DNA of 64,000 nucleotides from Ceratodon purpureus (Eukaryota > Streptophyta > Bryopsida > Pseudoditrichales > Ditrichaceae), in contig CM026426.1 of the NCBI GenBank assembly GCA_014871385.1, positions 44,626,484 through 44,690,483 on the forward strand, read 5' to 3'. The translations under genes and the position numbers were made by a program. The notes beneath the pieces were generated by a model, which worked only from the letters and a program-made list of their open reading frames with translations, had not been told where the DNA came from and did not search any database. Positions within the stretch are counted from its first letter, which is position 1. Every line of letters begins with the position of its first letter. This document shows, in pieces, positions 606 to 62,350 of the stretch.

Positions 606-675
606 CATCGGGGGATCTCCCGATGTTTGTAAATGACGAATTCGCTAACATAGTTCATCGAGGGATATCTCGATG
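606..675. repeat. Palindrome family A, pair of copies
   Basis: Two 20-base copies of the palindrome CATCGRGRGATCYCYCGATG lie at 606-625 and 656-675, 50 bases apart. The second has a GATATC-type centre. They lie just upstream of the minus-strand exon at 555. Confidence 0.9.
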
Positions 676-871
676 GCGCCTCCCAACGCCATGGCACACA
701 GAGGTGGTCAGACCATGTCTTGAAAGAGTATTACCACAGCAAAGCGATTTTAAAACAAAACAAATTCAAAGTTCCAGAACTCCATTGCGTTCAGGAAGAC
801 AAATGCAAATTTTCAGGAACTCGGTTAGTTTCATTCTGCTATCAAACATGAGGGAGCTACAGCTTCATTAC

Positions 872-1080
872 ATGGTCATGTGAGAGAATGTATGTGTTGA
901 CAATGAAGAACTCTGAATAAAATGAGTGTTCCATAATCCAAAGTCATTTGCACTAAACTACAATCTTCCCAAGATAGAATGGTCATGTGAGAGAATGTAA
1001 GTATTGACAATAAGGAACTGTGAATAAAATGAGTGTTCCAAAATCCAGAGTCATTTGTACTAAGCTACAGCGCTGCTCAA
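872..1080. repeat. 107-base direct tandem duplication
   Basis: Two copies with a 107-base offset start at 872 and 979 with ATGGTCATGTGAGAGAATG. Both continue through AATAAAATGAGTGTTCC to a CTAAACTAC/CTAAGCTAC end. The second copy runs up to and over the stop codon of the minus-strand gene ending at 1060, so the downstream copy duplicates that gene's 3' flank. Copies differ at scattered single bases. Confidence 0.85.
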
Positions 1081-1718
1081 TATCTTCAGTGCCAAGTCCG
1101 ACGACCGGTCCATGGGGAACTGACCAAACGGAAGCGGGGCCCGTTTCACATACTCTGCGACAGCTTCCCCTGAGCTGAATAGACCCTCCAGCCACGGTTT
1201 CAGTGTCATCGTAAGAAACCTATCACCACCATCCCCGGACCAGGTTGGGGGGTGGACAACGTTATGAGGGTCGTTGAGAAGGTTCTTCTGTGGACTATCA
1301 TCCACTAGTAGGACTTTCTCAACGGACTCCAATACCAGCAACTTAGCAAAGACACGGAGATCCTTTAGAAAGAACGGCTTGTCTGGTTTTGACGACTCCA
1401 CGTATGACGAACGTGTGCATTCGTTCTGGCTAAGAACCTGCACATCTGGCAGCTGTAAGGAGGTGCCCTGAAGAACAACAGGAAGAGTTTCAGGTATATT
1501 CCTAGGCGCGATGCTGGTCCAAAAGGCTACCGTTGCCTGAATATGAAGCCAGTTCAAGAATTCCTGGCATCGAGGTCTGATCATTATAGGGCGCTTTTTT
1601 CCCTTGACAAAAATCCCACGGTGAACGAGAACCCCGTTTAAGTCTAGTACAACCGAATACCTTCGACCGGGTACCTTTCCGATCACCTTTGCTGGAACGG
1701 AGGATGGGAGAGGGGGGC
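1060..1718 (-). other. Final exon of the giant gene: FCP1-like HAD phosphatase domain
   Basis: Listed separately because it could be mistaken for a stand-alone gene. The open frame contains YSVVLDLNGVLVHRG (nucleophile Asp kept; second Asp is Asn, as in a plant DLNG subgroup), VAFWTSIAPRNI, DKPFFLKDLRVF and VLLVDDSPQKN, the family's motifs in order. It ends with a TAG at 1062-1060. The previous short exon 2073-2004 ends in phase 1 (AAA G) and this exon supplies GC, giving an unbroken Gly codon. That supports fusion to the upstream ParB/methyltransferase-like exons. Confidence 0.75.
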
Positions 1719-4700
1719 CTGGAAAATGCAACAAAAAAAAGTCTCATCAGAATTCAGCATCGGGAGATCCCTCGATACAGATGTCCACTGTAAACATGTG
1801 TGATCAACATTCAGCATCGGGAGACCCCTCGATATAGATGTCCACTGAAAAAATGTCTCATCAGAATTCAGCATCGGGAGATCCCTCGATGCAGATGTTT
1901 AGTAAATTCCTCAAGCATCTACGGGAGACACTATACGTTCTACACATGTCCAATCTGAGGACATTAAAACTATCAGTCCTACAATTAGAGTTCGACTAGA
2001 TACCTTTCGCACTGTCGTCCGAATTCGGATCTTGGGCTTCCGATGAAATGCCAACCGTATTAGACATCGGAATCTGGTAAAGGTTTTTTTTCAAAGTTAT
2101 TAGTAAATGGGATTTCATCATTATAGTCCTTGTAAACGAACTCGTGAGCCTGTCTAACTGCTTCAAGATGCTTAGCCTTGCGAGAGGGTGGGGTGTAATT
2201 CCCTCGCTGGGATATGTGATCCCTTACCTGTTCGTCCAGACTAGCACGAACTCCTGCTGGAGTGCTTTTCCCCTTAGGCTCTCTCTCAGCACCGGTGCCT
2301 TTTCCCTTCCCCTTGACCCCCGTTCCGGTGCTAGGCCCAGACTTACCCTTGCCTCGTGTGGCCGGGGGGCCGGATGTTGTTCCCGACGAAAGTTCCGACG
2401 GAAGGGATCATTGCAAACGCTTCTCCAGCACAAGTGAGCGACATTCACAATCTGTGTCCTTAGATTTCTCCACCGCGACTAGATCTAGCTTGGTGGATAC
2501 CTCCGTCAGTGCGTTGTTTGGGAGCCCTTCATATAAATCCGAGTTTAGCTCCTCCACTTCCGCGTCGTTGTCTTTGACCTCGTCACATGCCTTTACATCG
2601 TCGCACACCGGGGCTTCCGCGTCGCACGACGTCTTCTCCAGGCTGAACGCATCTAAATCCTTCAGAGTGTCGTCAACAACATCTTCGTTCATGTCAGGAG
2701 CCACGAGGGGAGACTGATGGGTCTCCCCGGGAGATGTAATCCGTGGGAGAGGAGGCGGGGGGCTGGATGGGAGGAGAGGCGGGGGGCTGCAAGGGATCAC
2801 ATAAGGAGTGACGGACTGCGAACTGTAAAGACCGCACTCCTCAGCTACGGGGGGGTGATGGTTTGGATTTGGAGCAGTGCCTTCTGTCATCGGGATATCT
2901 CCCGATGGTGGGATGCACGGTTCATGCTGACTATCAGCTACTCCTCCCTCCGTCTCCTGCTCTTGAAGATGAGAAATCCTTTCCGGGTCCACAGCATCCT
3001 TATCCGTCCCCTCCGTATCCCTGTCAACTCCCGCGTCCTCCTCTCCTACTGGTGCGGATTCATTCATTCGCGGAACCGCAGCAAAGTTCTGGACATTAAA
3101 GTCCAAGTCATCCAGCCCGTCAGCACCCTCTCCCACGTCTTCTGCACCACCTTCAGGTTCCGTAGTCTCAGTCTGGTGATCCACCGGTAATGTCCTCATA
3201 TCCAGCAGCGACCGAGCTATGTCCTTCGTGTTTCCCGACACGGTGGCAAGATCGCTTCGTGGCGTCAAGGACTCCTCGACGTGAGAATCGTCAACGGTGT
3301 GATCCCTCGACGCAGCTCCACCATAAACGCGCGCGGAGTTCAGCAGTCCCTGCAATATGAGCGCAGGTCACCATTAGCGGTAAGAAATGCTGCAGTGGAG
3401 TAGAAATTGGGTTCGAGTATATGGTACAGGAATACTACAATGCCTTGGAAGTTAACCCGAGGTGCAGTGCTAAGCAAATAAAAGAGAGGTGCCTTGCTCA
3501 CAAGAGTAGGGAATTTAGTCGTGAGGGGGATGTTACATGGAATGAAATAATTGGTTAAGAGAGGAATAGCGTTTTTCAAAAATTAAAATTCTTCATTTTC
3601 CATAATGGTATGCAATTTATGATACTTACAGAATGGTACAGTTTCTTACAGAACCCCTATACGAGGATAGTGATCATGCTAGATTTCGCCACTCGATATA
3701 ACAACATGGAATCCCAAATTAGATAAGCCTGCCTAAGGTCGAAAACCTACCGAGGTGCAAGCCGTCTCCTCGTCGTCAGAGTTGGATTCGGAATCATCAG
3801 GCGGCGATTGCCCGCGGGCATCTTCATCAGCAGCCACACCATCTTCATTATCACCCTCTCCACCGCCTGCCTCATCATCACCATCGTCACCACCATCATT
3901 GTTTACCAATTTATCTGGGTCAACTGCGTCCTTGTAAAGTATGTCCCATATCTGCTTCGACGTCTTCTTCGTGTGTTCCTCATCATCGTCACAGAAGACA
4001 ACTTCGAGGACCATGGCTTCGTTTTCCTGTAGACATGCAGGCGATATGAACATGTATAAAATGCGAACAGCAGACTGTAACCAAATGTCACGTTCAATTT
4101 CATTGCGTAAGGGTTCAGAAGTGCCGTTAAATGTGGACAGAAGTGCATGATTTATCGGGGGATCCCTCGATGATTTGAGAACCCCTTAAGCCTAGACTTT
4201 TAAGACGTTATCCGTCCATCGAGGGATCCCCCGATAAATCTTGTATCCGTGAGGACATATCCGGAAACACTGAGGCTGAGAACAGAGAAGGACTTCTGAC
4301 TTAGATTCTATATACGTGAGTGAACGAGTGCATATATCGCGAGTACTATAAGTGGAGGACATCTGCATAATAAGCCTCAAGAACAACAGCCTATTTGCAC
4401 AAGTATGAAATAAAGTGGAAGCATTCGAGTCAGTGAAAGAGAAATTTCTAATATGACTTCAGCATTCGAAGGGTGCAGACAGAGTACTTACAAGTCCAAG
4501 GAGGGTGAAGTGAGCCCCGCTGTTGACGTTTACGAGTACCATGTTATCTTTAATGTGCTACTGAAAGATAGTAGAAAGGGCGGCCAGCTCAATCGTTGGT
4601 CGACCAGGTCGTTTCCATTGCTGGATGGTTTCAGTAATGTCCTTGGCGAGGTACACTGCGTCGAATGGCCTCTTCCCCGGAAAGAAATCCCCGAAGCATT

Positions 4701-7700
4701 CCTTCATAGACTGCGTTGGCGAATAAGCGAAGCAGAAAATCATGTACACAACATACGAAGAACCGAGCTCCGGCTCGGGAAATCCGTCCTCGCGGGAAGG
4801 GACATAGTGGATGACATGCCAGTTCCACAACCTCCTCTTTGCTGTCCTCGTGCGCGTTTCGATGTGCAGTAGTGTCGCATGGAATCCCGCCGCATCTGTG
4901 AAGACAACTGCTCCTGAGCGAACAAAGACCTGCGTGCTGTTAAGTTCCTACCCTACTAGAGGATTGAATATCCGAGACAGGACGTTCTCGCCAAGCACCT
5001 GAGCTTTCACTGGCATGTCAGCGATCGCATCAAACAGGAAGTACATGAATATGTGTGGTTTTCCCCCTCCTCTCCAACTATACACTTCTTCACTTCGTAA
5101 AATAACAGAAATCTCGGGCCTACTCCGGTCCGTAAGCACGCACTTGTACTTCTGATTCAACCCCCGCTGGATGTGCGATAAGTGACTTGCTTGCTCTTGT
5201 ACCATGTTGTGTGCGTCCCACATCACCTTAACAAAGTCAGGCACGTCCGCAGGATCAGATGTCTTGTTGAGGTTCCTGTTTCGGTCGTCCAGCCACTTCT
5301 TCCCTGCAGCCGTTGCATACGCCTTATCTAGCCAGCTCTCCAGCTCCGCGCGACCGATGTCTCTCGAATCGGCTAACTCCTCCCATTCCGCAGCAGAATA
5401 CATTACGTAGGTGCTCTTACGGCTTGGAAGCTCAAAACCCATATAGTAGTTCATCAACTCGTTCTTCATACATCTGATCAGTCTTTCCCTATTCCCTGCT
5501 GTTTGAAGGGACGGTAATCTCGCCACTTTATTACCTTTGGTCGCCTCCGATCCCTTCACAGATATTTGTTTCTTCTCCACAAGGTCAGCAAGGTGATGGA
5601 TATCCTCTGAGCGCAGGCCGTATAGTGGTTTTAAATCGTTCTGGACAAAGGGCTTCCGCTTGAGGTCATAGTTCGTCTGCACATTCCTTTGCGCATCTGG
5701 CAGCTTCCCCTTCATGTACTGTTTCTCAATCTCCACCCATCGGTCAACGGCCGTATCGTCTTCAAGAAACAGTAGCGGTATCTTGCAGTCCCTTAGCTCT
5801 GATTCCTTCACGTTTGTGAAGATCGATGCGAGAGCTTGAGTGAATTGCTGCGTACCACACGTTGGGAGAGGGGTTAGTAGCGCTCTCTGACAAAGGAAGT
5901 TGCCATCGGGGGATTGCCCGATGATGGGAAGTACGAGGAATACTCTAAGAGGCCATATACATTTCTACAACTCGGATCATCGGGGGATCTTCCGATGACT
6001 TTGATACATATATACAGATATACAACTCGGATCATCGGGGGATCTCTCGATGAGGGGGGGAATAAAGACTTACCAGAAACTCTATAGGGTGCCGCCGTCC
6101 CTGTAAAGCTGGCATCGGGCACTTCAACTCTTTCCACTTGATTCTGGCATGGAGCACCTGCATCATGAATGTGTGCTCCTTCTGTGGGCCGGCCATATCC
6201 TGGTTCAGGACACGTGAGAGGAGCATGAGCTTGATGTGCTCAGGCTTGGGCGCCCACACTGGGATGATTGAGAACTTAGACGCCTTGTCTTTGTCAGCCC
6301 CAGCAATTTCCCCACTCTCGACGAGATCCCGGTAACACCGAACCGTATGCTGGCCCCCAATGATGAAGAAGTTCGTGGAGCTTCTGATCTGATTCTTCTC
6401 CGGAGGTGTATTGAAAAACTGTACTTTTTTATCTGGTCCATAAGGTCCCTTCTTCAGTGGAAGTACAGTGATTTCTCTATCTGTTCCACTGTACCTCGGA
6501 GCGATGCGCGCCTGGTTCGTCAAGGCTTTTAGCCTGTCCGGAACAAGTCCTCGGTAGACGATTGAACCTGGAGGGGCCCTGTGCAGCTTTGAGAAATGCA
6601 CAGTTATTGGCGCATAGTTCTCATCCTTGAGCCTCTCGTGGCCCCACTTGTACAATGGTTCAAACGCCTCGTTGTACAGGATCTTCATCTCCGTCTGCTT
6701 GGTCTTGTCCAGCTTCTCAATATCCGAAGCTGACATTATCACACACTGCTGGAGAGTGAGCTTGTCATCACCCTTCCCCTTCTTGCCCTTCCCTGTGTCC
6801 GGCACCGCAGTTTCCCCGTCATTGATCAAGGAAGATTTACGTTTTGTGCCCCGCGTCTTGGTAGGAGTAGACGCAGTCGGAGTCTGCGATGGAACAGGAG
6901 CAGCAGCTGCAACCTCACTTCGCGCCTCGTCAATTAGGTTCCACTGATTTTCAATTTGTGCCGGAGTCCACTTCGCCTTATCCTCCGGCAGGTACATGAA
7001 CCCCTTGGCAGTGAGGGATGCACACTGATTCAGACTGAGCTTGCCGAGGTCGAGGATTAGTCCATAAGTTACAGTCCGATCGGACTTCGGCATCTTCTCC
7101 TCCACCACCATGATAGCTGTCTCCGCATCAAGGCCTTTCAGTTTGAGCACGTTTAATCCAATCGGAGAATGGATCCGCGAATCACAGGTGAGGTGGGGGA
7201 CAATGACGGCCATGCCTCCTGCCGTATCCTTCCACGACATCGCCCATGCGGTGACGTTCTTATCGCAGCGGTAAACTGCGCAGGGATTTGATTCTCCGAC
7301 GTGATTGTAGCCATGGATCCAGTGATCGACAAAGGGGAACAGCTTCACGGGCTTGTGGTCCAATGGTGGTTCCATTATTTGTTCATTCCTGCAGAACAGA
7401 CATACATCACTGTTGGTCAAATCCCTGCTCCAAATCAGTTAACACTTATAAAAATTGGATCATCGGGGGATCTCTCGATGACTTCGATTCATACACACGC
7501 GTAGGGGGCTATGCGCATTACGTAGGGGACAACAACTATCTTACAGTACCATTGAAAAAATCAGACGCACGAAAGGGCACTGAGGTCATCGGGAGATCCC
7601 CCGATGTTCTGCCATACCTACAGGATGGGAAGGGATACCAACACATCGAGGGATCCCCCGATGGACCAACGATATGACACCTAAGCAAAATAGCACTGTC

Positions 7701-8334
7701 CATACAGTTCATTGTCCACGGTGAGGTTACCTGGTTAGAAGTTTATGTTTTATTAATATGGTTTCTAGTGAGTGGGTCATCGAGAGATCCCTCGATGTTC
7801 TGCCATACCCACAGGATGGGAAGGGGATTTGAAGACATCGAGGGATCCCCCGATGGACCAAGGACATGTGCATAGTGGTCATCGGGAGATCCCCCGATGG
7901 CTTGCCGTTCCCACAGAATGGTAAGGGGATACTGACGCATCAATGGTAATTTCAAGTGAAAAAGGTCATCGCGAGATCCCCCGATGGCATGCCGTTCCGA
8001 AAGAATGGAAAGGGATACTGACGCATCGAGAGATCCCCCGATGGACCAAGGACATTTTTATTGCATCAACGGATATCACTGAAGTTTGTTACACTGTCCG
8101 TACAGTGTATTGTGTTGGAAGAGGTTCTCTGTTCCGTACAGTTTATGTTCAAACCTTAGGGTTTACAGTAAATAAGAGCTGGAGCTGTGTTTATAAGCCG
8201 GACTGGGACGTAGGCATTTCGAGATGTGATAAAGGAAAAATGTCACTAAGCACAGAATTTGAGATTAAGAAAAAAACTTACGGGTCCTCCCAGATTCTTG
8301 CGGTCCCTGGCCCTCTGGATGAACTCCTTGCCAT
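1060..8334 (-). CDS. Giant seven-exon gene: Cys-rich + ParB/Srx-like + amino-methyltransferase-like + acidic linker + FCP1-like phosphatase (three in-frame stops)
   Basis: Exons read on the minus strand: 8334-8282, 7424-6074, 5847-4492, 4026-3751, 3349-2228, 2073-2004, 1718-1060. All use GT-AG ends and agree in phase; the total is 4,887 nt (1,628 codons plus TAG). The start is the ATG at 8334 (MARSSSRGPGTARIW). Domains: CLFC and other Cys near residues 25-100; ParB/Srx-like region about 290-450 with FFIIGGQHTVRCYRDL; beta-class methyltransferase-like region from about 740 (FDAIADMPV) through RSGAVVFTDAAGF and LWNWHVIHYVP to a motif X/I-like LVNVNSGAHFTLLGL with VVFCDDDEEH in the next exon; acidic and proline-rich linker about 930-1400; FCP1-like domain with nucleophile loop VVLDLNGVLV (D1435). 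In-frame stops: TAG 4950-4948, TAG 4560-4558, TGA 2410-2408. The methylase motifs are degenerate, so a catalytic role is unproven. The introns carry palindrome family A. Confidence 0.65.
1758..1891. repeat. Palindrome family A, three tandem 57-base units
   Basis: Copies at 1758-1777, 1815-1834 and 1872-1891, exactly 57 bases apart, each preceded by ATTCAG and followed by an AGATGT-type tail. They lie in the intron (1719-2003) of the giant minus-strand gene, beside the acceptor of its last exon. Confidence 0.9.
2888..2907. repeat. Palindrome family A copy inside a coding exon
   Basis: CATCGGGATATCTCCCGATG lies inside exon 3349-2228 of the giant gene. On the coding strand it is read in frame as part of IPPSGDIPMTEG, in the low-complexity linker. 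Confidence 0.8.
4153..4236. repeat. Palindrome family A, inverted pair
   Basis: Copies at 4153-4172 (TATCGGGGGATCCCTCGATG) and 4217-4236 (its mirror form, with TTTATCGG outside on both flanks) lie in the 4027-4491 intron. The two copies and their outer flanks are inverted relative to each other with about 44 bases between, so the whole is a larger inverted repeat. Confidence 0.9.
5904..6052. repeat. Palindrome family A, three copies in one intron
   Basis: Copies at 5904-5923, 5978-5997 and 6033-6052 fill most of the intron 5848-6073 of the giant gene. The last two are each preceded by ACAACTCGGAT, so a 55-base unit has duplicated. Confidence 0.9.
7461..8043. repeat. Palindrome family A cluster with a duplicated paired-palindrome unit
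   Basis: Eight copies: 7461, 7587, 7643, 7778, 7836, 7880, 7967 and 8024. Four units share a palindrome, a spacer of about 36 bases with the theme TGCCATACC-ACAGGATGGGAAGGG, and a second palindrome followed by GATGGACCA. In the third unit the second palindrome has decayed to ATCAATGG. All lie in the first intron (7425-8281) of the giant gene. Confidence 0.9.
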
Positions 8335-8339
8335 AGCTG

Positions 8340-10470
8340 CCTGCAAACTCTGCACGGCGATGGCACGATGCACAGGAAATTGCAAACAAAAAATGAGAAT
8401 GAGAAATAAAAGAACAGTTTAGAGGAGCAAACACTGTGACGAATTTTATGTTCACCTCCCTCTACTCGTTCTGACCATGCAAGTAACCATACCAACGCAT
8501 ACGAAAATAACAATTATGCAAGAGATTGGCAAGTGCAAACACAAAAGAGGAGACACAAACCCAATTGACCAAGGAATGTGCGCAAGAAATACCTGCGAGT
8601 GCAGTCGCAGGTGGAAAACCCCCGATCCGCTGCTTCGTCTTCCTTCTCAAATCCTGCTCCGACGATCCGATTTCCTTATCCGCCCCCCGATTCCAAAAGC
8701 TCCGCCTCGATCGAGAGAGAATGCCACTCCCAAACACCTCCCAAATGCCGAAAAAAACACCTCTCACTCGCCTCTCAAACACCTCTCAATCGCCCTAAAT
8801 CGAGAGGAAAAGAATTACTCGCCCTAAACAATAGAACCAGCTCTCAATCGCCCTAATCCTCCCTCGCAAATCGACACACGGAAGCGAATTTCCACGACAA
8901 CCTAAGCCCCTCGACAGAGAATGTTGTGGACCGCGAAGCGAACAGACGCGGGAGAGGAGCGACCTACAGGAAGGTGGCGCGAAAGCGAGGTAGAGCGGAA
9001 AAACACTCGAGCGACGCCGTCTTTGCACTGTACAGTGAAGAACTTAGTACCATATTAAAAAAGAAAACGGGTTAGCACGTTCTTGGAGGAGAACGACGTA
9101 CATTAAAGGGCACCAATCTCTGGCTCATGAGTGCATGCAGTCAATTGAAGTGACCCCTTGATATTAATTGGAAATTAATGAACGATGGGAAATGAACAAA
9201 GAAAATAAAAAATTAAATTGGATATTCAGAATAACGAAAAAATATATATAAAATAGAATGAAGTGAGTTAAAAGAGTTTAATGGGATTACTTTTAAAAGT
9301 AAGTGAGAATTAAAAATTAAAAAAAATTAAAAAAACTAAAAATAAAAAATAAGAAATCAAATATAAAAGAGAACCGAATGAAATATAAACGAGAAGGAAT
9401 TACATTCAATAAGAATTAAAAGAAAACTCATAATAGGAAATAATGATATCACGGGCATAAAAGAAAACGCACATTGAAAAATAAAAGATAAATAAATGAT
9501 AGATAAAAGAGAAGCGAATGAAAAATTAAAGAGAAGGGAATGCAAATGGTGGAAAAGAGAATGCCATGTTAAAAGAGACGGCAATTAACTTAAAAAAGAA
9601 AAATGAAATTAAAAACAACTAATATGGAGTACGCCTTTCGAGATTTCAGGAATTAGATAGATCCTCAAGAGATTTATGTCACATACTAGAAGATGCAATA
9701 ATAGATACTCCCAGATAAATAAACCTGAAGCTCGAAGAACCTATATGGAGTTCCCCTTATAGGTTGTCCTACCGTCATCCACATGGTACCGCGCATGGAT
9801 TATAACTCTAACATTCTCAAAAAACCACCATTAACTTTTTATATATATATAATTTTCATTTGAATACCTTAAATAGTGGCAACCACTATTGATTTATTGC
9901 AAGATATAAATCATCCTCACGTTTTCATACTTGATAAATCAGACTCATAGTAGATCCAACAACAGTCATTATGAAATCATTATTTTTAAAAAGAAAATGG
10001 TGCAAGTCATTTTTCTTTGAAATTAGTTTCACGCGAACTGTTAAGTCATTCATTTTACCCTTATATTATCTTCTTAGAATTTCCCGTCATAAATAAGAGT
10101 ACCATGTTATCAGAAAACTTCCCGTTATAAATTAAAATCAATGATAACAAAGGTTAGGTGATATAAAGATACCTTAATTACAATATAGCATTTTTATACA
10201 ACGTTACTTCGACGCTTTTTAAAGAAAATACTTACATGTGTGACTTAATTACATAAACCATTCACATCATAATTGAGATTGAATTCAATTTTGACTTTGT
10301 GATGCACCATATTTAAAATACCAACACACTAAATCCCTAGAAATTACTTGAAAGAGGCATGATTAAAAATTCACGTTTTAAAGAGTCACGTTTTGCAGAG
10401 TCACTCATTTTCAGAACGTGAAAGGTCACAGGAATGAATATAAAAAAGTAATGAATATAAAAATAAAAAT
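8340..10470. other. Upstream flank and AT-rich spacer without a supported gene
   Basis: The 8.34-9.05 kb part is the probable 5' flank of the minus-strand giant gene. It ends in a GC-richer stretch (8.88-9.02 kb) with a perfect CACTGTACAGTG at 9027-9038. From 9.06 to 10.47 kb the sequence is strongly AT-rich, with A-tracts and no reading frame showing protein character. Confidence 0.6.
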
Positions 10471-10474
10471 AAAA

Positions 10475-11125
10475 ACATTTGAATGGTGTGTAAATTCATA
10501 ATGGGGACATTTGGTGATGCTTGTCATTTACTTCAGGACACCATAAATTAAATTGACCCTTACGAGATTTATGTGATTTCAAAAAAAAAAAAAAAAAACA
10601 TTTGAATGGTGTGTAAATGCAAAATGGGGGCATTTGGTGATGCTTGTCATTTACTTCAAGACACCATAAATTAAATTGACCCTTACGAGATTTATGTGAC
10701 TTCAAAAAAAAAAAAAAAAAAACATTTAAATGGTGTGTAAATGCAAAATGGGGGCAAATTTTGGTGATGCTTGTCATTTACTTCAAGACACCATAAATTA
10801 AATTGACCCTTACGAGATTTATGTGACTTCAAAAAAAAAAAAAAAAAACATTTAAATGGTGTGTAAATGCAAAATCGGGGCATAATTTGGTGATTCTTGT
10901 CATTTACTTTAAGACACCATAAATTAAATTGACCCTTACGAGATTAATGGAGTTTCCACAAAAAAAAAGAAAAAACATTTGAATGGTGTGTAAGTGCAAA
11001 ATGGGGGCATTTGGTGATGCTTGTCATTTACTTCAAGACACCATAAATTAAATTGACCCTTACGAGATTTTTGTGATTTCAGAAAAAAAAAAAAAAAAAA
11101 CGTTTGAATGGTGTGTATATTAGAT
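10475..11125. repeat. About 122-base tandem array separated by poly-A tracts
   Basis: At least five units start with CATTTGAATGGTGTGTAA or a close variant, near 10478, 10599, 10722, 10847, 10976 and a partial one at 11101. Each unit holds TTGGTGATGCTTGTCATTTA, then ACACCATAAATTAAATTGA, and ends in an A-tract of about 10-20. The shared ORF readings are translations of the repeat. The A-tails suggest tandem amplification of an A-tailed sequence, but no SINE promoter boxes were recognised. Confidence 0.9.
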
Positions 11126-11172
11126 AGTCCCTCCAAAGTTTTATGTGAGCTTGAAAATTCTAAAATAGATAA

Positions 11173-11235
11173 ACCCTAAACCCTAAACCGTAACCCTTAA
11201 ACCCTGAACCCTGAAACCCTGAACCCTGAACCTTC
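11173..11235. repeat. Interstitial plant-type telomere-like repeats
   Basis: Degenerate copies of AAACCCT (AAACCCTAAACCCTAAACCG, then AACCCTGAACCCTG forms) run for about 60 bases. This is the complement of the plant telomere unit TTTAGGG. The stretch is internal and decayed, not a chromosome end. Confidence 0.8.
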
Positions 11236-11239
11236 CAGC

Positions 11240-12245
11240 TTGAACTTAGAAATGGCCTATTACGCTAGCACTCCCATGAAAAGTGTGGGAACAGAAACGT
11301 GGCTTAAAGGACGTGGTACGTGACTCTAATAAATCATGCCCTTGTGTGGCTATTTACATAACAGATCTTGACATATAAATACATCTTGGTCCTTCGTAGA
11401 GAGCGACTATTGTACAGTAGTGGACCAGGTGATGATATGGACACTGCTACAGAAGTAGGGGGGACAGATTGAGTGGCGCTGCATTATGAAATGGAAACCA
11501 CCCTCACGAAAGAACTGCTGGATGGTTTATGCATCATGACATGTATGTTCCCTTCGAATTCAAACCTGAAGGGCTCGATCTTGTTTCCCCCTTCTGAATT
11601 GGCGGGGATTCTCCGTTTGAATTCTCTGCTGGACCGCCATCTCCTGATTCATTCACATCAATTCAGAGCTGTCTCCTCAGAGTTGTTTCATTAGCGCGTT
11701 TCAGAGTACCAGTTTCCTGCAACATAGCATGTCGTAGACGGGTTGTAGAACCTTAGACGGGTGGTAGAACCTAAGATTAGAGGGTTGCGGGGGACCGAGG
11801 ATGGGATTGAGGTGCCGGAGAATCATTCGAGGAGGCGGAAGAAGCATCTGCTCGGGTGTTTAGAGCGGCCGATTACATTCGCAGGGAGCGTAGGTATGAT
11901 CTCAATCTTTCCTTGGAAGATCTTTTGTCAATCGGGTTTATTTTATTGCTCTTGAATGGTGAGTTCTATCTCCTGTACACGTTTCATGTGCTGATCATGT
12001 GATCCATCGCGGAATCCCCTATTATAAGTAGAATTGTTCATGTAGTTCTCCGCGGATTATGTAGAATTTGCAAAGTTATCCGGGAATTTCTAGTTAAGAT
12101 TAACCCTTGCATGTTGCATATTGGTGGAATGAACTGCACTTATGTGATTTCCGTGTTGTTGTAGAAATTATTCTGTACGGACAGTAATCTTACTGTACGG
12201 ACAGGGGGTGGCGAGGTGGAGGCTGCTTCTTAGTGGACCCAACTA
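11240..12245. other. Spacer without a supported gene
   Basis: No coding signal was found. Near 12175-12206 the motif CTGTACGGACAG occurs twice, separated by TAATCTTA. Related forms occur at about 7697, 8092 and 9027. Confidence 0.5.
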
Positions 12246-12249
12246 CACT

Positions 12250-12483
12250 CATCGAGAGATCCCTCGATGCTGCTTTGGAGATCCTCATCGAGAGACCCCC
12301 ATCGGGAGATCCCCCGATCCTATAGAAGTTAGACCCTCATCGAGAGATCCCCCGATACTTCTTTGGAGATCCTCATCGAGAGACCCCCATCGGGAGATCC
12401 CCCGATCCTATCAAATTTAGACCCTCATCGGGAGATCCCTCAATCCAATAGAATTTAGACCCGCATCGAGAGATCCCCCGATA
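12250..12483. repeat. Palindrome family A cluster directly upstream of the DDE-like gene
   Basis: Full copies lie at 12250-12269, 12300-12319, 12338-12357, 12389-12408, 12426-12445 and 12464-12483, with two extra half-copies (CATCGAGAGACCCC) joined in front of the second and fourth. The block is made of two near-identical sub-blocks containing CTTTGGAGATCCTCATCGAG and TTAGACC. The last copy ends 20 bases before the ATG at 12504. Confidence 0.9.
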
Positions 12484-12503
12484 CTTCTTTGGCTCTCGTG
12501 AAA

Positions 12504-15500
12504 ATGGACTCTGAGAGTGACAGTGACGGTCCCCAGATGCCGTCTGTGGGTCCTTCCCGTCACGACTTCTCTCAGGAATCAACTGCTCGCTCAGATGAGC
12601 TTCGACCCGGGCAATCTGTGAAGCTTGTCGTCCGCCGTTTCGGAGATGTTGGAATCATATCTGTTGGAATCAGATCTGTTGTCGACGTTAATCCTTCTGG
12701 GCACTGGCTTGGGGTTTGCATTCCACCTGGCTCTTCAGAATTTATTCTTGTGCGACCATCAAGCATCGTGTCGGACGCAGAGGACCTCTTCCTCGAACCA
12801 CGCCAGAGAGGCTGCATCGTTTTGAGGGATGCTATGAATCGAACAGTCCTCTGGAGAGCTAGTGATGCGATTGCATTGTTGCAGGATCCTCCCACGAACG
12901 ATGTTGAATACGTTCGTCAACAATCCTGGATTGGTCTGGAAGTTCAGAAAGTGGACCTTGCGGGTGCGGTTATAGCCTCCGGTAGAGTGTTCCGCTCAGA
13001 ACCGGAGGAGTATTTCCGAGATGGAAGATTGGGCGAAGGATACATTGGAGTGACGATCATCGACGTCTTTGTCAGGGACACTGATGCCATAATGAGTAAT
13101 GAGCGTTGGTTGATATCTGAATGCAAATTCCCGAACGGCCCTTCTCTTCGGTCAACAGTAGAGCACTTCTCCCGAATCCCAATGGAGGTAGATCCACAGG
13201 AGCACCTTGGAGGCAGACGGAAGGCAGTTTACCGGTTTATAGTGCGGAAACCTAAAACGCATGAAAAACGTTTGCTGTACAATACGAAGACAGTGGATGC
13301 TGAATTGAGGAAGGTTAGCTCCGAACGATGCTGCTCGAAGCATTGCTGTCAGACATTTCCCCAGGAGCTCACACTAATAGTGCGTAAGAAATTCTATTCG
13401 AAATCCTTTCAGGGAAGACGGGAATACGGGATTGCGGTGGGTGGACAGATGCATTCAGTCGACGGTGACCGTAGGAGGAAGTACTTGACGCTGCATGGTT
13501 TGGAAGTTTGCGCAACTGCGTGGTATCTTATTCACGGAGTTCCCAAGTCAACTTTTCATAGCTATGTCCAAAGATACAATGAAGGGGTTCTATCAACAGC
13601 GCATGGAAACAAGGGCTACAAGCGACCGAGGATCGGAACAGTTCAAGTCATGGGTACTATTGCTGCTATTGTAGACGAGAATGCAGATCAGATGCCCCAT
13701 CAAATGCGAGGAATCGGAAATGGACGAGTGGACACTCTGAAATATCTTCCAGCAGGCAACAACTGGAAGCGGGTGATGGCTGACGCCAATGAGGTATGAG
13801 TCCTTGCTTCGCGTTTCTTGTAGTGTCATTGCATCGGGAGATCTCCCGATAGAGGTTACTTTCGTATTGACAGTCAGTTCTCTGTCTTATAGTATCGTTG
13901 CACTCTACCTACGTCATGCAATATAGAACTCTTTTTCCCGTCTTCGGTGATTTGTCTGAATTTGTCGTCTAATACTTTGAGCTTGTTTGCTTGCATGCGT
14001 CTCTTTCTTTTCCTCACCAGCCATTTGAACGTACCGGTGCTTTGCAAACAAATGTTTCATTAGGTCTGCCTACAGTGAGCCAGTCTACAATTAGTAGAAC
14101 TAGAAGTTCACTCTTCAACAATATCGCAATCAAACCGGTTGGAAGTTCTTTTGCGAAATGCTCGACATGTGACCAACTTCAAGAATTCATTCTGAAGTCA
14201 GCCAACGGAAGTCCAGAATATGTTGACTTCGTGAAGCAACGGGAGGAGCATCTTGCTCACCAAGCCTCTTGTCGTCGTCTGTATGGTGCATGGCGCGAAG
14301 AATCAAAGCGCAATCCTAGTGAGATTCTGTGCATCATTCATGACAAGATGGATACTGCAAAAACCGCCCTTCCCCGGATGCGGGTTACAACAAAGGCTAC
14401 TCAAGGTTTGGGCCAACTTCCCATGAACGTCACTGGTATGGTTTCACATGGGCACGGGGATGGCGCCTATGCACATTACTGTCCTCACTGTTGGCCAAGA
14501 GATTCTAACGCCACAATATCGTCGTTGGCGAGGCTGTTCCGTCGACTGGAAGGCCCCTCATTTCGGGAGTCTGGGAAACTATTTGAGTACCCCCCGCAAA
14601 ACTCAATGTTCGAGACATTGTTGAGGGGGAAGTGTAGGTGCCTCCACATTTTACCGCGTATCGAGGGATCCCCCGATGTCCCAGGGTCGAAACCTTTACC
14701 GAGGAAGTTATACCTTCAACTGGATAACTCCGCCAAAGATAACAAGAACCAATATCTCATGGCGTTTCTCTCCCTGCTGACTGCACGGGGTGTTTTCAAG
14801 GAAATTCAGGCTGGATTTCTACTAGTGGGTCATACGCACGAAGATATTGACGCCTACTTTAGCCATTTGTCGAAGGCATTAAAAAGCAAGAATACGTTTG
14901 TTCTAGCGGATCTAATGAAGGCCTTCATGCAGTCCCAGGAGTTGTCATTCATGCCGGAGTTCATTCAAGAGGTTGCAGACTTCAAGTCTTTCATCAAAGG
15001 CTATCAAAGTAGTGGTGCAGCACGCCTTATTGGACTTGGAGAGATGCACCTTTTCAAGTTCTATGTGGACGATGATGGTTGGCCGGTTATGAGGTACAAG
15101 AAATCAGCCCTCGACCCACAATGGCTACCCCTCAACAGACCCCCTATTCGATTGTGGAATGAAAACATGGATGGCGGCCCAAAACTTCCTCACGGCTCAC
15201 CGAAGCCGGTTCCGTTCAAACCTATGTGGGGAAGTGAGGTTCCTAAATCTACTGGGAATCAGGTGAAGGCGAGAGATAACGCAGCCAAAGCCACTGAGAA
15301 CAAGAAATTCATGAAGTGCGGACTCCAAAAGTACATTGAGTACTGGAAAAATGGAATGTCAAAATGCGAGGGATTTGCAGCAGCGTTTGGGCCTTATGTT
15401 GACTACTGGACTCGTTTGTTGTCTGAGCTTGATAAGCCTTTGCCAGTGACAAATCCTGAATTGTTAGAGGGTTTCTGGCCCCGCCATGACTGGAGGGACG

Positions 15501-15988
15501 TATCCAACGAAGTACCGCGCCCAAGATTTTTACAATTTTTACTTGAGGATGTGACTCCTGAGGATGAGGAACCAGAAGCGTATTGTGGCCCAGCAAACCA
15601 AGCTCCGCAGAGTCCTTTCAATCCGTGGCGTGATATTCGGCCTGGCAGCTGGGTTCTTTTGAGACCTGAAGATCCACTCATTTGTCCTGTATGGCAGGGA
15701 AGAGCAGCGGCTGCTGTATGCAGAGAGGAAGGCCATGTAAACCATGGGAAATTTTTGATTCAGTTTTGGGAACCTCGTAGCGCGGAAAGAGACCTTGCAT
15801 TGAAATACCGTAACTGTTGGTCTGCTAAGTGGGTAGTAGAGACGCGTGCTCCGGAGTGGGTCTCTGTTGGTGCAGCTTTGTTTCAAAATTGGTCAAAAAT
15901 CAAGGACCCGTCCACTAGAACCATTCCTAAGAAAGCTATGGAGGCTGCTTTAGCAAACTTAGAGAGAGCTAACGTAGTTGATCCATGA
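12504..15988 (+). CDS. Two-exon 1,085-aa protein with DDE/RNase H-like transposase-type core
   Basis: Exons are 12504-13793 and 14021-15988, both phase 0 (GAG|GTATGA and CACCAG|CCATTT), with a TGA stop. The ATG at 12504 is chosen; the frame is open slightly upstream but only with non-ATG starts. No in-frame stop or frameshift was found. Residues about 330-430 hold a helix-turn-helix-like stretch (VCATAWYLIHGVPKSTFHSY). The second exon has IIHDKMDTAKTALPRM, LYLQLDNSAKDNKNQY and LVGHTHEDIDAYFSHL: three acidic clusters in the order of a DDE/RNase H fold, typical of a large uncharacterised transposase-like family (DUF7869-type by memory). A C-terminal WVLLRPEDPLICPVWQG region could be a small barrel. 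A family A palindrome interrupts exon 2. The role is probably DNA transposition or a domesticated derivative; the family assignment is inference. Confidence 0.75.
13832..13851. repeat. Palindrome family A copy in intron
   Basis: CATCGGGAGATCTCCCGATA lies in the only intron (13794-14020) of the DDE-like gene. Confidence 0.9.
14659..14678. repeat. Palindrome family A copy inside coding exon 2
   Basis: TATCGAGGGATCCCCCGATG is read in frame as IEGSPD within HILPRIEGSPDVPGSK. It sits between a Cys-rich stretch and the conserved LYLQLDN motif, without breaking the frame. Confidence 0.85.
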
Positions 15989-17105
15989 TCCTCTATGCCA
16001 CTTAGGAACGACAGAGGGTCATCCCTCGATGATTACATCTGAGTCACCTGTCTTCCTCATTCTCTATTAAAGAAATAAGAGTCATCACTGCTTGACCGTT
16101 TCTCATCCCCGTGTAATATCATCCTTCCTCGTGTCAATGATGTTTGTTTCTGAGATTTGTGACACTTTAAGAACCAAGACGATCATGACTGCGCAACGTG
16201 GAGATTGGTTGTGGAAGCAGATGGAGTAGTGAGAAACTAGAGGAAGGAAGTAGAAGCTTTCAGAACAAGGGGGGAAGGAGAAAAACTGCAGATTCATACG
16301 CCTAGTTCATTTGGTGTCGATAAACTTGAACTCGGGCGTTCTGTTCAGCAGCGATTTCAGCAGCGGCATCGCCAGCAACGCAAGTTCCCGAGCAGGTGAG
16401 AGCAATGCACACATGCAGGGGCCATGGCCAATCGACTTCAGTTTTTAGTTGAAATTCTCTTCGTTGCGTTTTTTGTTGTGTTGCGTATCGAGTCTGATGG
16501 GTTCTTGAGCAATTAGCAACACGAGTCATTGAGATTAGCTAGTGTATTAGTTTGAGCAGATACGGTTGGCATGTAATTAGGTTTTGGTCCACTGGAGTCG
16601 TCGTTTTCCCAATACATATGGACATACAATGTCGACAGCCTGATCCCACTGTATGTTGTTGCATTTTTGTCTAACTTTTATCACTGTTATCGTGACGACT
16701 TGAGCGGGTTTCATTTGTTGAGGTAAAGACGCAGTTGATTGATGTGTACTTGAGACATTTGTTGGGCTACTTGTTCACGAATTGGTTGTTTGTTTGAGGG
16801 GTACTACTGATAACACATGTCGATCGAATACTTTTGTTGAGGTGGAAATTTGGCTAAGTGCTGCGATGAACTTGTAGAAAAAAGGATTTAGTGTTTAAGG
16901 TTCAGGGTTTAGGGCTCTGGAGGTGGATTTACATTCATATACATCATGTGTTTCAGTTGAAGGGTTTGAGATAACATATCTTGTCATCAGTTTTTTAGTT
17001 TCTTTGAAGTGTGTTGTGGTTATTGGTTCTTTCGGATCTGGTTTTATGAACTTCATGTGGGTCTAGAATTTTCTAATATTTTTCTCTTGAATTTTTTTTC
17101 TACAG
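15989..17105. other. Downstream flank and intron-like region
   Basis: Just after the DDE-like gene a degenerate half of palindrome A (GGTCATCCCTCGATGATTAC, from 16018) and about 110 following bases repeat the sequence found twice at 18.23-18.44 kb. The rest shows no coding signal. It ends in a T-rich tract and TTTCTACAG, a good acceptor for the next exon, so it may hold the intron and 5' exon of that gene. Confidence 0.5.
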
Positions 17106-17789
17106 ATCCCAGGTATGGAACAGGATCCGACTCTCAAGAAGGGGAAGATGATGATTGAGTATGGTTCAACCTCCCAGAAGGAACCCGAGTTGGTCTTCAA
17201 AGGAGATTGCGAGCAACCAGAGCTTCCAGTCTGGAAAGATTCAGCAGCAAGGAGAGGAAATGAGTTTCAATTCATGAAAGATGCACCTCGGAAGCTGCCA
17301 TGTCTACGACATTGTCTGAAGGACGTGGCCAAGTTCCAGGAGACAACAAAGTATGAAGTACCTGAATTCGACAAAGTTTCGGGGATGGTTTCTGAAGGAT
17401 GGGATGGAACTTGGAATGACATTGCTTTGAGGCAATTTGTGGCCGTTGCAAATGCAATTGGGGTGATGCACCCTCCAAGGAACAAGAAGAACCAACTCGA
17501 GTACATCAAGAATCAGGTCATTTCCATCAAGAACCACCTGGAAGAGACAATGGAGATAGAAGAGACAATGGAGATAGAAGAGACAATGGAGATAGAAGAG
17601 ACAATGGAGACAGAGCCAGCTCCAGCTCCAACAGTGCCAGCTCCAACAATGGCAACTCCGAAAGTGACTGGATATTCTTTCGCCAAATATCAAGCAAAAT
17701 GGAAGAAAACCTCAACAAAATGGAAGAAAACCGCAAGGACCTGTAAGTGTGGTGGATGCCATACGAGGAGGATTTTACTTCTCATGTAG
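17106..17789 (+). CDS. Unknown protein with EETMEI tandem repeats (last exon or whole CDS)
   Basis: I do not recognise this protein. The exon starts at an acceptor (TTTCTACAG at 17097-17105) and an ATG follows at 17115. The ORF runs 224 codons to a TAG. Residues about 1-140 are mixed and soluble-looking (WDGTWNDIALRQFVAVANAI, with a helical IKNQVISIKNHLE). Residues about 142-165 are four copies of EETMEI, an 18-base tandem repeat at about 17543-17610, then a PAPAPTVPAPT linker. The C-terminus is basic with CKCGGCHTRR, which could bind a metal. It lies between two copies of a duplicated palindrome-bearing segment, so it may belong to the same mobile unit as the DDE-like gene. A stand-alone host gene is equally possible. 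Confidence 0.45.
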   Translation: MPGMEQDPTLKKGKMMIEYGSTSQKEPELVFKGDCEQPELPVWKDSAARRGNEFQFMKDAPRKLPCLRHCLKDVAKFQETTKYEVPEFDKVSGMVSEGWDGTWNDIALRQFVAVANAIGVMHPPRNKKNQLEYIKNQVISIKNHLEETMEIEETMEIEETMEIEETMETEPAPAPTVPAPTMATPKVTGYSFAKYQAKWKKTSTKWKKTARTCKCGGCHTRRILLLM

Positions 17790-18189
17790 CGGATATGTTG
17801 TAGTCAGAGACTTCAGGTGCCATTGAGGCAGGTTTTGTAGTTCTATGTTTCAGCGGACACGTAGGAGATTTTGTGTAAAAACATTCCTACTGTTCTCGTT
17901 CTCTGGACAATTCTGTTTAAGTACTTTCACAGACTTTAGTTGCCATTGAGCCCGGTTTAGAATTTTGACTAGATGACATGAAGTACTCGTAATTGTAAAT
18001 TCTCAATCTGTAATGGTGGTTGTATGAGCACGGTTACTTGAATTTGTTAAATAGGTTTGAATGTGTGAATATCGCAATGCACTGGATCGACAGGACGTAA
18101 TTGACCGATTGCAAAATTAAAATAAATTAATTCCTCAGAAAACACAAACTAACATCGCACAGAAAATAACGTCGCACACCAAAACTGTT

Positions 18190-18500
18190 TAAAGTTTTTT
18201 GATTGGAGATCCTATATGCTGTTTAGGTACGACATCGGGAGATCCCTCGATGATTACGTCTCAGTCACCTGACTTCCTCATTCTCTATTAAAGAACGCCC
18301 TCCTCATCACTGCTTGACCGTTACTCATCCCCGGAGGTACGACATCGGGAGATCCCTCGATGATTACGTCTGAGTCACCTGTCTTCCTCATTCTCTATTA
18401 AAGAACGCCCTCCTCGTCACTGCTTGACCGTTACTCATCCTCGGGAAACCCTAAACCCTTCCTCGTGTCAATGATATTAGTTTCTGTATGAGTTTCATTT
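18190..18500. repeat. Tandem duplication carrying palindrome A (110-base unit)
   Basis: Two copies start at GGTACGACATCGGGAGATCC (18228 and 18338), 110 bases apart. Palindromes lie at 18233-18252 and 18343-18362, each followed by GATTACGTCT-AGTCACCTG and ending in GACCGTTACTCATCC. A third, older copy lies at about 16019-16150, and degenerate relatives lie at 20125-20500. Confidence 0.85.
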
Positions 18501-18611
18501 TTGCTTCACAGTATAATACGCCCCCTCATAAGCATAAGTTCCTTACTGTGACGATATAGTTGTTCCAACTTCAGTTTCCCTTCTGTTTCATCTTCTTCTA
18601 GTTCATTTGCC

Positions 18612-19229
18612 GTGATGAGGAGGGCGGGCAGTAGTTTTCGGGTGTCAAGTTACCCGCCAGACGAGTGGGAGGTGGTTGTTTCCCCACAAGGAGTGGAGGA
18701 GCTTCGTCCGTGGTTTATGGCGATGGAACACGCCCGTGGTCGCGGCGTAGCCATTCCCCCGTGGAACCTCATTGCACGCCTAATGCAGCCTGGTGTGGAG
18801 TGGAATTGGACTATTGCACATAGTATAGAGCAACTGGAGATTATGAACGCTTCCAACATCAAGTTTCCCCTCACCTCCGGCGAGGGCTTCTCTATGGCTG
18901 ATTCTAATGAGGAGGGGAGCGAGAATTTGGGGAGCCCGCCAGACGAGTGGGAGCCGGTTGTGTGGCCACAAGGAGTGGAGGAGCTTCGTCCATGGTTTAT
19001 GGCGGTGGAACGCGCCCGTGGTCGCGGCGTAGCCATTCCCGCGTGGAACCGCATAGCACGCCTAATGCAGCCAGGTGTGGAGTGGGATTGGACTCTTGCA
19101 CATACTCTAGAGCAAGTGGAGATTATGACCGCTTCCAACATCAATTTTCCCCTCACCTCTGGGGAGATCTTCCCTATAGCTGATTCTAATGAGGAGGGGA
19201 GCGAGAACTTGGGGAGCCCACCACATGAG
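18612..19229 (+). CDS. Unknown protein made of two 94-residue direct repeats
   Basis: I do not recognise the family. The ATG at 18615 or 18612 opens a frame to 19229, where GA|GTGAGT is a good donor. A downstream acceptor at about 19459 would add only HLPHV and a stop. If unspliced, the frame ends with TGA at 19230. The protein consists of two near-identical 94-residue units (282-base period: CCCGCCAG at 18653 and again at 18935), each with PPDEWE, QGVEELRPWFMA, ARGRGVAIP, WNIARLMQPGVEW and DSNEEGSENLGS. The second copy differs mainly by conservative changes. It is flanked by palindrome A duplications. Confidence 0.5.
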
Positions 19230-19459
19230 TGAGTAGGTGAAATGTTATCTCCTCAGAACCCTTAACCTTGCCCTTAGTTTGATGTTTTCATAGTAATAGA
19301 TTACGTTTGCTGTATGTCTTGAGCAAAATTCCATTGCCTGATGCTGAGTTCGTGGTGATTGTCAAGAGGATGAGTCCGTGCTTTAGACCTGCACTTGTCG
19401 GTTTTAATCCCTAAACTTCATACCATCTGATCCTGTTTTTCTCTTTGCTTCTGAACTTG

Positions 19460-20855
19460 CAGGCATCTTCCACATGTTTAACTTCTTGCTGCTAATCAGC
19501 TCAGATATCGGAAGGGGACTTTAGCAAGTAGTTAGCAAGACCGTTATATCCTACGATGTTTGGTAACCATAGATGTAAAAACAGATCACTTTCATCTTTT
19601 TGTATCTCTTGTCGAAGGTGTCCCCCGTGTGGGTTGTGAACTACTTTTTGAATGGAATGCCTTCAAAACAGAGTTGCTTTGAATAAAAAACAGAGTTTCA
19701 TTTGATGCTTTCATATTTGTATATTTTGTATTCTAATATTTCCATGGTTTAGAATAAATTTAGTAGTAGCAAATCTAGAATAGTTTCAAAACTGCTTCAC
19801 AGTATAATATGTCGGTCATGTTTGATATTGGGGTATTGCGTGAAAAATACTTCCGAGGCCGCAAGCCTTGTACCTGATTGTATGTTTGCCATGTGATATC
19901 CATGGTTCTACTCTGACATCGCGGGATCCCCCGATGAATGGTAGAGTACTTCCGAGCCCACATCTCTTCTTCTCTTCCGTTGGTCACTGTTGATGCAGTG
20001 GTGTATGCAACTTCGTCGTGGATCATGGATCCGACGTGTAGAATCATTCCCAAGATAGCCATGGAATCTGCGTTAGCAAATGTATAGGGAGACAATGTTT
20101 TTGATCGGAGACCCTATGTGCTGTTTAGGTACGGCATCGGGAGATCCCACGACGAGTCCGTCTGAGTTAATTCTCTTCCTGAGTTAATTCTCTTCCTTCT
20201 GATCGGAGATCCTATGTGCCCCCATCTCTTCTATTCATTTGTATTACCGTAATCCCAATGTATGTATATCTCGGTCAAGTTGGGTGCTGGGGATCCCGTG
20301 ATGAATATTGTAGAGCCGAAATCCCTTCTGTTTTCCGTTCCTTGCTCGCAATGTACGTATAATTATCTGGGTCAGGTTTGCTATCGGGGGATCTCGTGAC
20401 ACATACTCTGGAGCCCAAATGTCCTCTGCTCTTTAATATCTTGCTCGCAATTTACTTATATCTTGCTCAAGTTCGGTGTCGAGAGATCCCGTGATGAATA
20501 CTTCTGAGCCCGTCCATGACGGTTCTTCCCAGTCCAGAAATAGTTAAATATGGCATTATTTTGTTGTACATACAAATCAAACAATGCTCTAACATATAAT
20601 TAAATATATAAAGAATCGTTAGGAAGGGCTCAAAAAAATTGATTTGGGAGATAAAGGGAATAAAATAAAATCAATAGCATAGAGTGGAAGAAGGTTTGAG
20701 GAGAGATTGTGCATGTATAAAATCTCCAGAGTTTAAATTTTATTTTAATTTTTTTTTTTAATTTTTTTTTAAATTTTTTTTCTTTAAGGAAATGGTGCAG
20801 AGATTCCACTTCCTTCAGAACAAAGCAAGAAAATAAAATTAAAATTAAAAAAATA
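19460..20855. other. Spacer with decaying palindrome A copies
   Basis: There is one good copy at 19917-19936 (CATCGCGGGATCCCCCGATG) and weak forms near 20135, 20288, 20381 and 20481 (for example GTCGAGAGATCCCGTGATG), each in a longer degenerate repeat that includes GAGCCC. From 20.5 kb the sequence turns AT-rich. No gene is supported. Confidence 0.6.
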
Positions 20856-61695: not shown

Positions 61696-62250
61696 TTGCT
61701 AATTGAAATAAGTTGAACTCAACCCACCTAGGTTTATATGGTATAATACTTGACTTAAAAAGGTACACTAGATCCTATCCGAAGACAAAGAATTTATCAA
61801 TAATTCCAGGCATTTCTAGAAGGTATATAATTTTGGACTCATTATAAGCATTATTGTCCCCCTATTCTGAAATATCCCAAGAACTTTTCAAAGGTATATT
61901 ATCTGCTATGCAAATTTCCTTTCACAATACCAGAAGCGAAGAAGACCTGGACCTCATTTAATTTAAATATTCTCACTTATTAGCTATGAACATGACGTCA
62001 TCACGACGTCAGCCCTAATTTCCTTTCTCTATATAGATGTCGTTTATAATTGACTATGAAATAAAGTAGTTTCAAATAATAATACCACAGAATTAATTAT
62101 CTTTTTTTATTTGATTTCTAAAAATAGAACCCTAAATTTAGTACTTCTCCTCGGTTATAGGGTGCACTTCTGTTAATCGGAGATTCCCCAATCTCCCTTT
62201 TCCTTAGCTCCCCCTAGCTCCTTTTCAGATTTCATCCTTACCTTAGACAG

Positions 62251-62350
62251 TCATCCAGTCGACTGGATGAACTCTGTCACAATCGACTTGGATGAATTCT
62301 GTGACCAGCCGACTGGTTGAACTCTGTCACCAGCCGACTGGATGACTTCC
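62251..62350. repeat. GTCGAC-centred palindrome and 25-base tandem repeats
   Basis: A perfect 20-base palindrome TCATCCAGTCGACTGGATGA lies at 62251-62270. It is followed by three diverged repeats of CGACTGGATGAACTCTGTCACC (period about 25). The core CAGTCGACTG recurs at 63324 and 63741. Confidence 0.85.

Follow-up and report, generated by a model that had tools for sequence, protein, structure and literature searches.

We analysed a 64,000-nucleotide stretch of the genome of the moss Ceratodon purpureus (GenBank assembly GCA_014871385.1, contig CM026426.1; hereafter "the window", C6:44626484-44690483, where C6 is the window's contig and C3, C5, C11 and similar labels denote other contigs of the same genome), in which an original prediction had described a single gene joining ParB/Srx-like, amino-methyltransferase-like and FCP1-like phosphatase regions. 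The flagged region is the right arm of a repeated DNA transposon of about 21–23 kb, not a stand-alone gene. The true unit is larger than first read: it reaches window position 20556 and adds a second NIF-like reading frame (1–588) and a transposase unit. We consider it very probable that this is a large cut-and-paste DNA transposon whose right arm, the flagged gene, would encode accessory proteins.

A repeated element with inverted ends and target-site duplications

The window copy spans C6:44625837-44647039 (window −646 to 20556; 21,203 bp), as delimited by an inverted-repeat pair, a target-site duplication and blocks colinear with other copies; its first 646 bp precede the window start and positions 1–20556 lie inside. 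The 26-bp terminal inverted repeat at 20531–20556 reads ATGCCATATTTAACTATTTCTGGACT on the minus strand, and its partner lies at C6:44625837, before the window. On C3, a 22,724-bp copy is enclosed between perfect 26-bp inverted repeats of this same sequence. The exact repeat occurs at 142 genome sites (75 forward, 67 reverse), against 0 for the reversed control, and the 100 sites listed include 29 pairs that face each other at less than 60 kb (spanning 18.4–46.2 kb); 24 of these enclose a match to the flagged gene's exon 2. The target-site duplication is 4 bp long and was exact in 9 of the 10 pairs whose flanks were read, including the window copy, with TATT on both sides; further copies on C3 (TCTT) and C11 (AATA) bring this to 11 of 12 copies overall. 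Colinear blocks between the window copy and other copies are 84–97% identical, and in six copies taken with their flanks the alignment, both among themselves and to the window, continues well past the gene; for three it covers the entire left arm. These element boundaries, with their inverted ends and duplicated target sites, contradict the reading of the region as a stand-alone gene.

The remaining copies of this set are broken up by inserted DNA (C5, C11) or by masked sequence. Truncation had been considered for copies with differing left boundaries and was dropped: the C5 copy holds a Gypsy-type insert with the transposase further out, a transposase match likewise lies further out in the C11 copy, and the left side of another copy is masked. 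The insert in the C5 copy (L024-L025, C5:1040138-1060137) is a nested Ty3/Gypsy-type element with a 2193-residue frame, named by eye, and facing pairs of 37–41 kb elsewhere may hold similar inserts. The DNA flanking the C11 copy is 80% similar to window positions 62246–63320, which belong to some other repeat.

Between the two arms lies a central AT-rich tandem array (10459–11126) with a unit of about 127 bp, present as 14.1 units in the C3 copy. In that copy the array adjoins a run of AGGGTTT/AGGGTTC (element positions 9427–9521, in L030) that resembles the plant telomere repeat.

A putative transposase unit in the left arm

The left arm carries, on the plus strand and divergent from the right-arm gene, a 671-residue open reading frame at 13973–15988, whose C3 counterpart matches Pfam PF25273 (DUF7869; E-value 3.3e-44), preceded by an open frame of 446 residues without a named domain (12459–13799). 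The 671-residue frame is 97.5% identical between the window and C3 copies, with a ratio of non-synonymous to synonymous substitution rates (dN/dS) of 0.25, and contains D(KMD)...D(N)...HTHEDID blocks that by eye resemble a DDE catalytic core. Sixty-six copies of it were scored in the genome out of 1385 first-look candidates, of which 30 are full length without a stop, and DUF7869 matches of all kinds number at least 150 (scored among 1399 candidates).

The left arm also holds two further open plus-strand frames, at 18552–19232 (226 residues, with an internal repeat) and 17091–17789 (232 residues), for whose C3 counterparts a Pfam scan returned no domain. Near the left end, window positions 19983–20105 encode a 41-residue fragment with 49% identity to the transposase tail (E-value 3e-5), perhaps an old partial duplicate.

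The right-arm gene and its copies

In the right arm, long open segments run on the minus strand from 7438 down to 1060. Exon 2 (6074–7375; 434 residues, open) corresponds to the ParB-like part of the original prediction and exon 3 (4492–5847; 1356 bp, 452 codons) to its methylase-like part; they are followed by the acidic exon 4 (3751–4158), the coding status of which is weak, the proline-rich and acidic exon 5 (2063–3349), and an FCP1/NIF-like domain at 1078–1743 (NIF1). Seven exons had been predicted to join without a phase error, which stands for two junctions: exon 2 connects to exon 3 across GTAAGT/GCAG splice sites, both in phase 0, and exon 5 contains a strong donor whose phase matches that of the NIF1 acceptor (C3 element positions 19663 and 20348, respectively; the window has both sites). 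Either one gene or two could account for the region from exon 2 to NIF1. The three predicted in-frame stops are present, with TAG at 4948–4950 and 4558–4560 in exon 3 and TGA at 2408–2410 in exon 5. The proposed search for intact relatives in the genome found other copies open, and the stops are damage in the window copy, in which the transposase frames are open and the right-arm gene is broken.

For the exon-2 protein, 91 candidates were scored (94 matches; 469 at first look), distributed over C6 and several other contigs; many are open, with about 95% identity. C6 (110,524,308 bp of a 362.5-Mb assembly, or 30% of the genome) bears 71 of these 91. For exon 3, 87 candidates were scored (90 matches), and, the C3 query itself aside, three of them (on C2 and C6) show 100% identity. 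All scored exon-2 and exon-3 matches have at least 70% identity, so that, judged among these matches, the two exons look family-specific.

Between the C3 and window copies, the comparison used for all single dN/dS values below, dN/dS was 0.25 for exon 2 and 0.30 for exon 3. Exon 3 gave 0.33–0.51 against three other copies, with fewer changes. Among 11 exon-2 copies, pairs with a synonymous rate (dS) above 0.12 gave 0.25–0.71; pairs of unbroken copies fell at 0.25–0.37, and the high values involve broken copies. These low ratios indicate that exons 2 and 3 encode a protein that is under purifying selection, as judged from sequence comparison.

NIF-like domains with an altered catalytic motif

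The original prediction ended the gene in a phosphatase of the type acting on RNA polymerase II. An FCP1/NIF domain is indeed present, as NIF1 matches Pfam PF03031 at 1060–1743 with 55.5 bits (cut-off 21.8; E-value 7e-15), but its type was overstated. The catalytic motif of FCP1/NIF (HAD) phosphatases is DxDx(T/V), and motif I of NIF1 reads DLNGV, with the second catalytic aspartate replaced by asparagine. A second, diverged NIF-like frame on the minus strand (NIF2; 1–588) is cut by the window start, carries one stop in the window copy and reads SVNGV, also outside the catalytic pattern; its Pfam match is at E-value 0.0047 (274–588), and its C3 copy reaches 21.9 bits against the cut-off of 21.8. 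With nine changes each, dN/dS was 0.65 for NIF1 and 0.35 for NIF2. Phosphatase activity of NIF1 is doubtful.

Two loci of the same genome (L003 and L008) encode proteins that share with NIF1 the NIF family and the replacement of the second motif-I aspartate by asparagine (motif DVNGL), although identity to NIF1 is only about 31–32% (E-values 1e-21 to 1e-22). NIF loci of the DLDET type (L001 and L002) are 23–24% identical to NIF1, which by these comparisons is closer to the D[LV]NG kind.

NIF-like frames also occur beside DUF7869 elsewhere in the genome. Since 150 matches were scored for each, neighbour counts are lower bounds: among those listed, a DUF7869 match lies within 30 kb of at least 19 NIF matches, and 18 of these 19 pairs are divergent. 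Of 48 NIF frames with 281–302 residues, 16 have such a listed DUF7869 neighbour at up to 30 kb; random placement in 200 trials gave 1.3 on average and never more than 4, with approximate lengths used for some contigs. In addition, two NIF frames of 269 residues lie about 9 kb from a DUF7869 frame of 678 residues. These look like two further element classes with divergent NIF and DUF7869 genes, separated by frame length alone, and NIF/FCP1-like genes would then appear to recur beside DUF7869 in three element classes in all.

ParB and methylase labels

The ParB-like label was based on a single GGQHT string, which by eye resembles the GxHR box that is the ParB motif. Shuffling the joined protein 1000 times gave GGQHT-like strings in 3 cases, for a motif picked after it had been seen. 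In profile scans run to an E-value limit of 10, with filters that remove most matches above about 0.1, the 17 exon-2 members scanned against Pfam yielded no ParB family (two stray families, in one member each, best E-value 0.012), and no ParB family was found in PHROGs or NCBIfam. Against PDB, a single exon-2 sequence returned one unrelated lipoprotein (E-value 0.09) and a profile search returned nothing; exon 3 gave four stray sequence matches at E-value 1 or worse. A ParB profile built from 21 SopB relatives ranked 17 exon-2 copies amid 200 shuffled sequences, i.e., with no signal, and hhalign gave no match to a GNHR-motif protein of another element. Searches for relatives of exon 2 in viral contigs, and of both exons in phage records, found none.

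The methylase label had been founded on a beta-class motif order. Beta-class amino-methyltransferases carry motif IV [DNS]PP[YFWH] and motif I FxGxG, and neither is found in the 1356 residues of exons 2–5 of the C3 copy; six matches to [DNS]PP[YFWH] with one mismatch occur there, none of them in exon 3. AlphaFold2 models made without an alignment had predicted local distance difference test (pLDDT) scores of 31.1 for exon 2 and 34.5 for exon 3 and were unusable for fold comparison. Both labels are therefore unsupported by the profile and motif tests, and the likeness to ParB/Srx and phage ParB-methylase proteins consists of the GGQHT string as seen by eye, with no statistical similarity in the sequence tests; at the level of the fold, a ParB or Rossmann relation may still exist.

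By eye, a better GxHR-like box, FFVWEGNHRLAAW, occurs in a 253-residue minus-strand frame at L033:1515-2273. This frame has no match in Pfam, the best 150 of its 1911 candidate genome places were scored, and it may encode the protein of a different, highly abundant mobile element.

GATC-centred palindromes

The window contains 31 occurrences of a GATC-centred palindrome, CATCGRGRGATCYCYCGATG, at up to two mismatches (0 expected). All 31 lie inside the element, between 606 and 20154, leaving the other 43 kb of the window without any. Nineteen (606–8043) are around and within the right-arm genes, and twelve (12250–20154) are in the left arm, including six at 12250–12483, at the start of the transposase unit. 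The C3 element holds 41 (shuffled sequences, 0), with one cluster of 12 at the start of the transposase unit (7928–8411) and another of 11 just upstream of exon 2 (13842–14501), in its promoter or first intron; the others are in introns, with a few in coding frames. The exact palindrome has 1092 genome sites (reversed control, 0), and among 50 distinct sites listed, 45 fall in recognised copies and 5 (C1:128915-129333) outside.

Between the C3 and window copies, differences were found at 46 of 754 noncoding palindrome positions, compared with 179 of 1667 in the 40-bp neighbourhood, 644 of 8242 in all other noncoding DNA and 311 of 8829 in coding DNA. The palindromes are thus more alike than their neighbourhood, and only slightly more than other noncoding DNA. 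Hairpin pairing was considered as a cause of palindrome variation and is unsupported, as G-T and A-C combinations both occur.

Proposed mechanism and alternative readings

Taken together, these observations fit an element whose left arm would encode a transposase, from the DUF7869 exon and the exon upstream of it. Given the element's termini, its target-site duplications and the DUF7869 domain, this protein is predicted to bind the 26-bp ends, cut the element out and insert it elsewhere through a staggered cut of 4 bp. The divergent right arm would encode a multi-exon accessory protein and two FCP1/NIF-like domains with an altered catalytic motif, and the palindrome would most simply be the binding site of an element-encoded regulator, which is a guess. 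A more elaborate version is that giant moss elements of a DUF7869 lineage retain FCP1-like pseudo-phosphatases together with a DNA-binding accessory protein specific to the element, through which they would direct host RNA polymerase II or silencing at their own genes, with the palindromes as landing sites. We regard this as unlikely, and we know of no plant transposon with such a self-marking system.

Several points weigh against the transposon reading or parts of it. One of the 12 flank pairs is mismatched at one base (CGTA/CATA), Pfam assigns DUF7869 no function, and its catalytic residues and fold were judged by eye. Most listed DUF7869 matches are without a listed NIF neighbour. Exon 5 stays open for 95 codons beyond the proposed donor, and NIF1 could therefore be a separate gene. 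Finally, dN/dS was 2.21 for exon 4 (16 against 2 changes, in one comparison) and, for exon 5, 0.92 up to the donor and 0.39 after it (seven changes), so that constraint on exons 4 and 5 is uncertain, with few changes and a single comparison.

A stand-alone plant gene with fused ParB/Srx, amino-methyltransferase and FCP1 domains would account for the exons in phase, the genuine NIF domain and a GGQHT-like string that few shuffles reproduce, albeit for a motif chosen post hoc. Yet such a gene would have to sit inside an inverted-end repeat with duplications, in a family with 91 scored exon-2 candidates, and profile searches gave no ParB or methylase match, with the methylase motifs absent; we consider it highly improbable. 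The right-arm NIF genes could instead be captured host genes, carried as cargo without function for the transposon, and L003 and L008 do encode NIF proteins with a related D[LV]NG motif. However, with only about 30% identity any capture must be old, and NIF lies divergently beside DUF7869 in apparently two more classes, where the 16 of 48 frames far exceed the random mean, which makes cargo without function a rather poor candidate.

The transposon might also be a Sola-superfamily element in the strict sense, with DUF7869 as the Sola transposase. Sola DNA transposons, as described in passages of PMC10741241, have inverted repeats, a 4-bp duplication and a DDD-type transposase, occur in the moss Physcomitrella and sometimes exceed 15 kb, so that inverted repeats, duplication length, moss host and large size are common to both. 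On the other hand, 21–23 kb is above the usual 2–9 kb (some over 15 kb) given there, the likeness is one of description, and the same passages do not mention right-arm genes, NIF domains or palindromes. We hold this assignment to be possible, while leaning somewhat against it. Zisupton (KDZ) elements are unlike the window element in having an 8-bp rather than a 4-bp duplication, according to parts of PMC12730594. The same parts describe fungal DNA transposons with a TET/JBP dioxygenase thought to counter host silencing; these are similar in carrying an extra enzyme gene and differ in transposase groups, duplication lengths and cargo, and may serve as an analogy for the accessory genes of the large moss transposon proposed here.

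Significance

No description of the element was found in the literature searched at the level of titles and abstract openings, nor in the Ceratodon passages of PMC9261002 and PMC9946827, and the name DUF7869 was not found in the literature searched. As described in part of PMC8000587, C. purpureus has a 360-Mb genome with U and V chromosomes of more than 100 Mb each. Judged by its size, C6 is probably a sex chromosome. Separately, the Ceratodon genome paper reportedly mentions an undescribed cut-and-paste superfamily on the sex chromosomes; if the element belongs to it, the element is partly known and its anatomy is new.

Overall, what looked like a striking "fusion gene" turns out, on this probable sex chromosome of a plant, to be part of an amplified mobile element, and the uncharacterised DUF7869 is now linked to an element whose ends and duplications are defined. 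With 71 of the 91 scored exon-2 candidates on C6, which makes up 30% of the genome, this family is relevant to the way such chromosomes become filled. Since open copies are identical or near-identical, they suggest recent transposon activity, and direct tests of transposition, of empty sites and of what the passenger genes do should be feasible.

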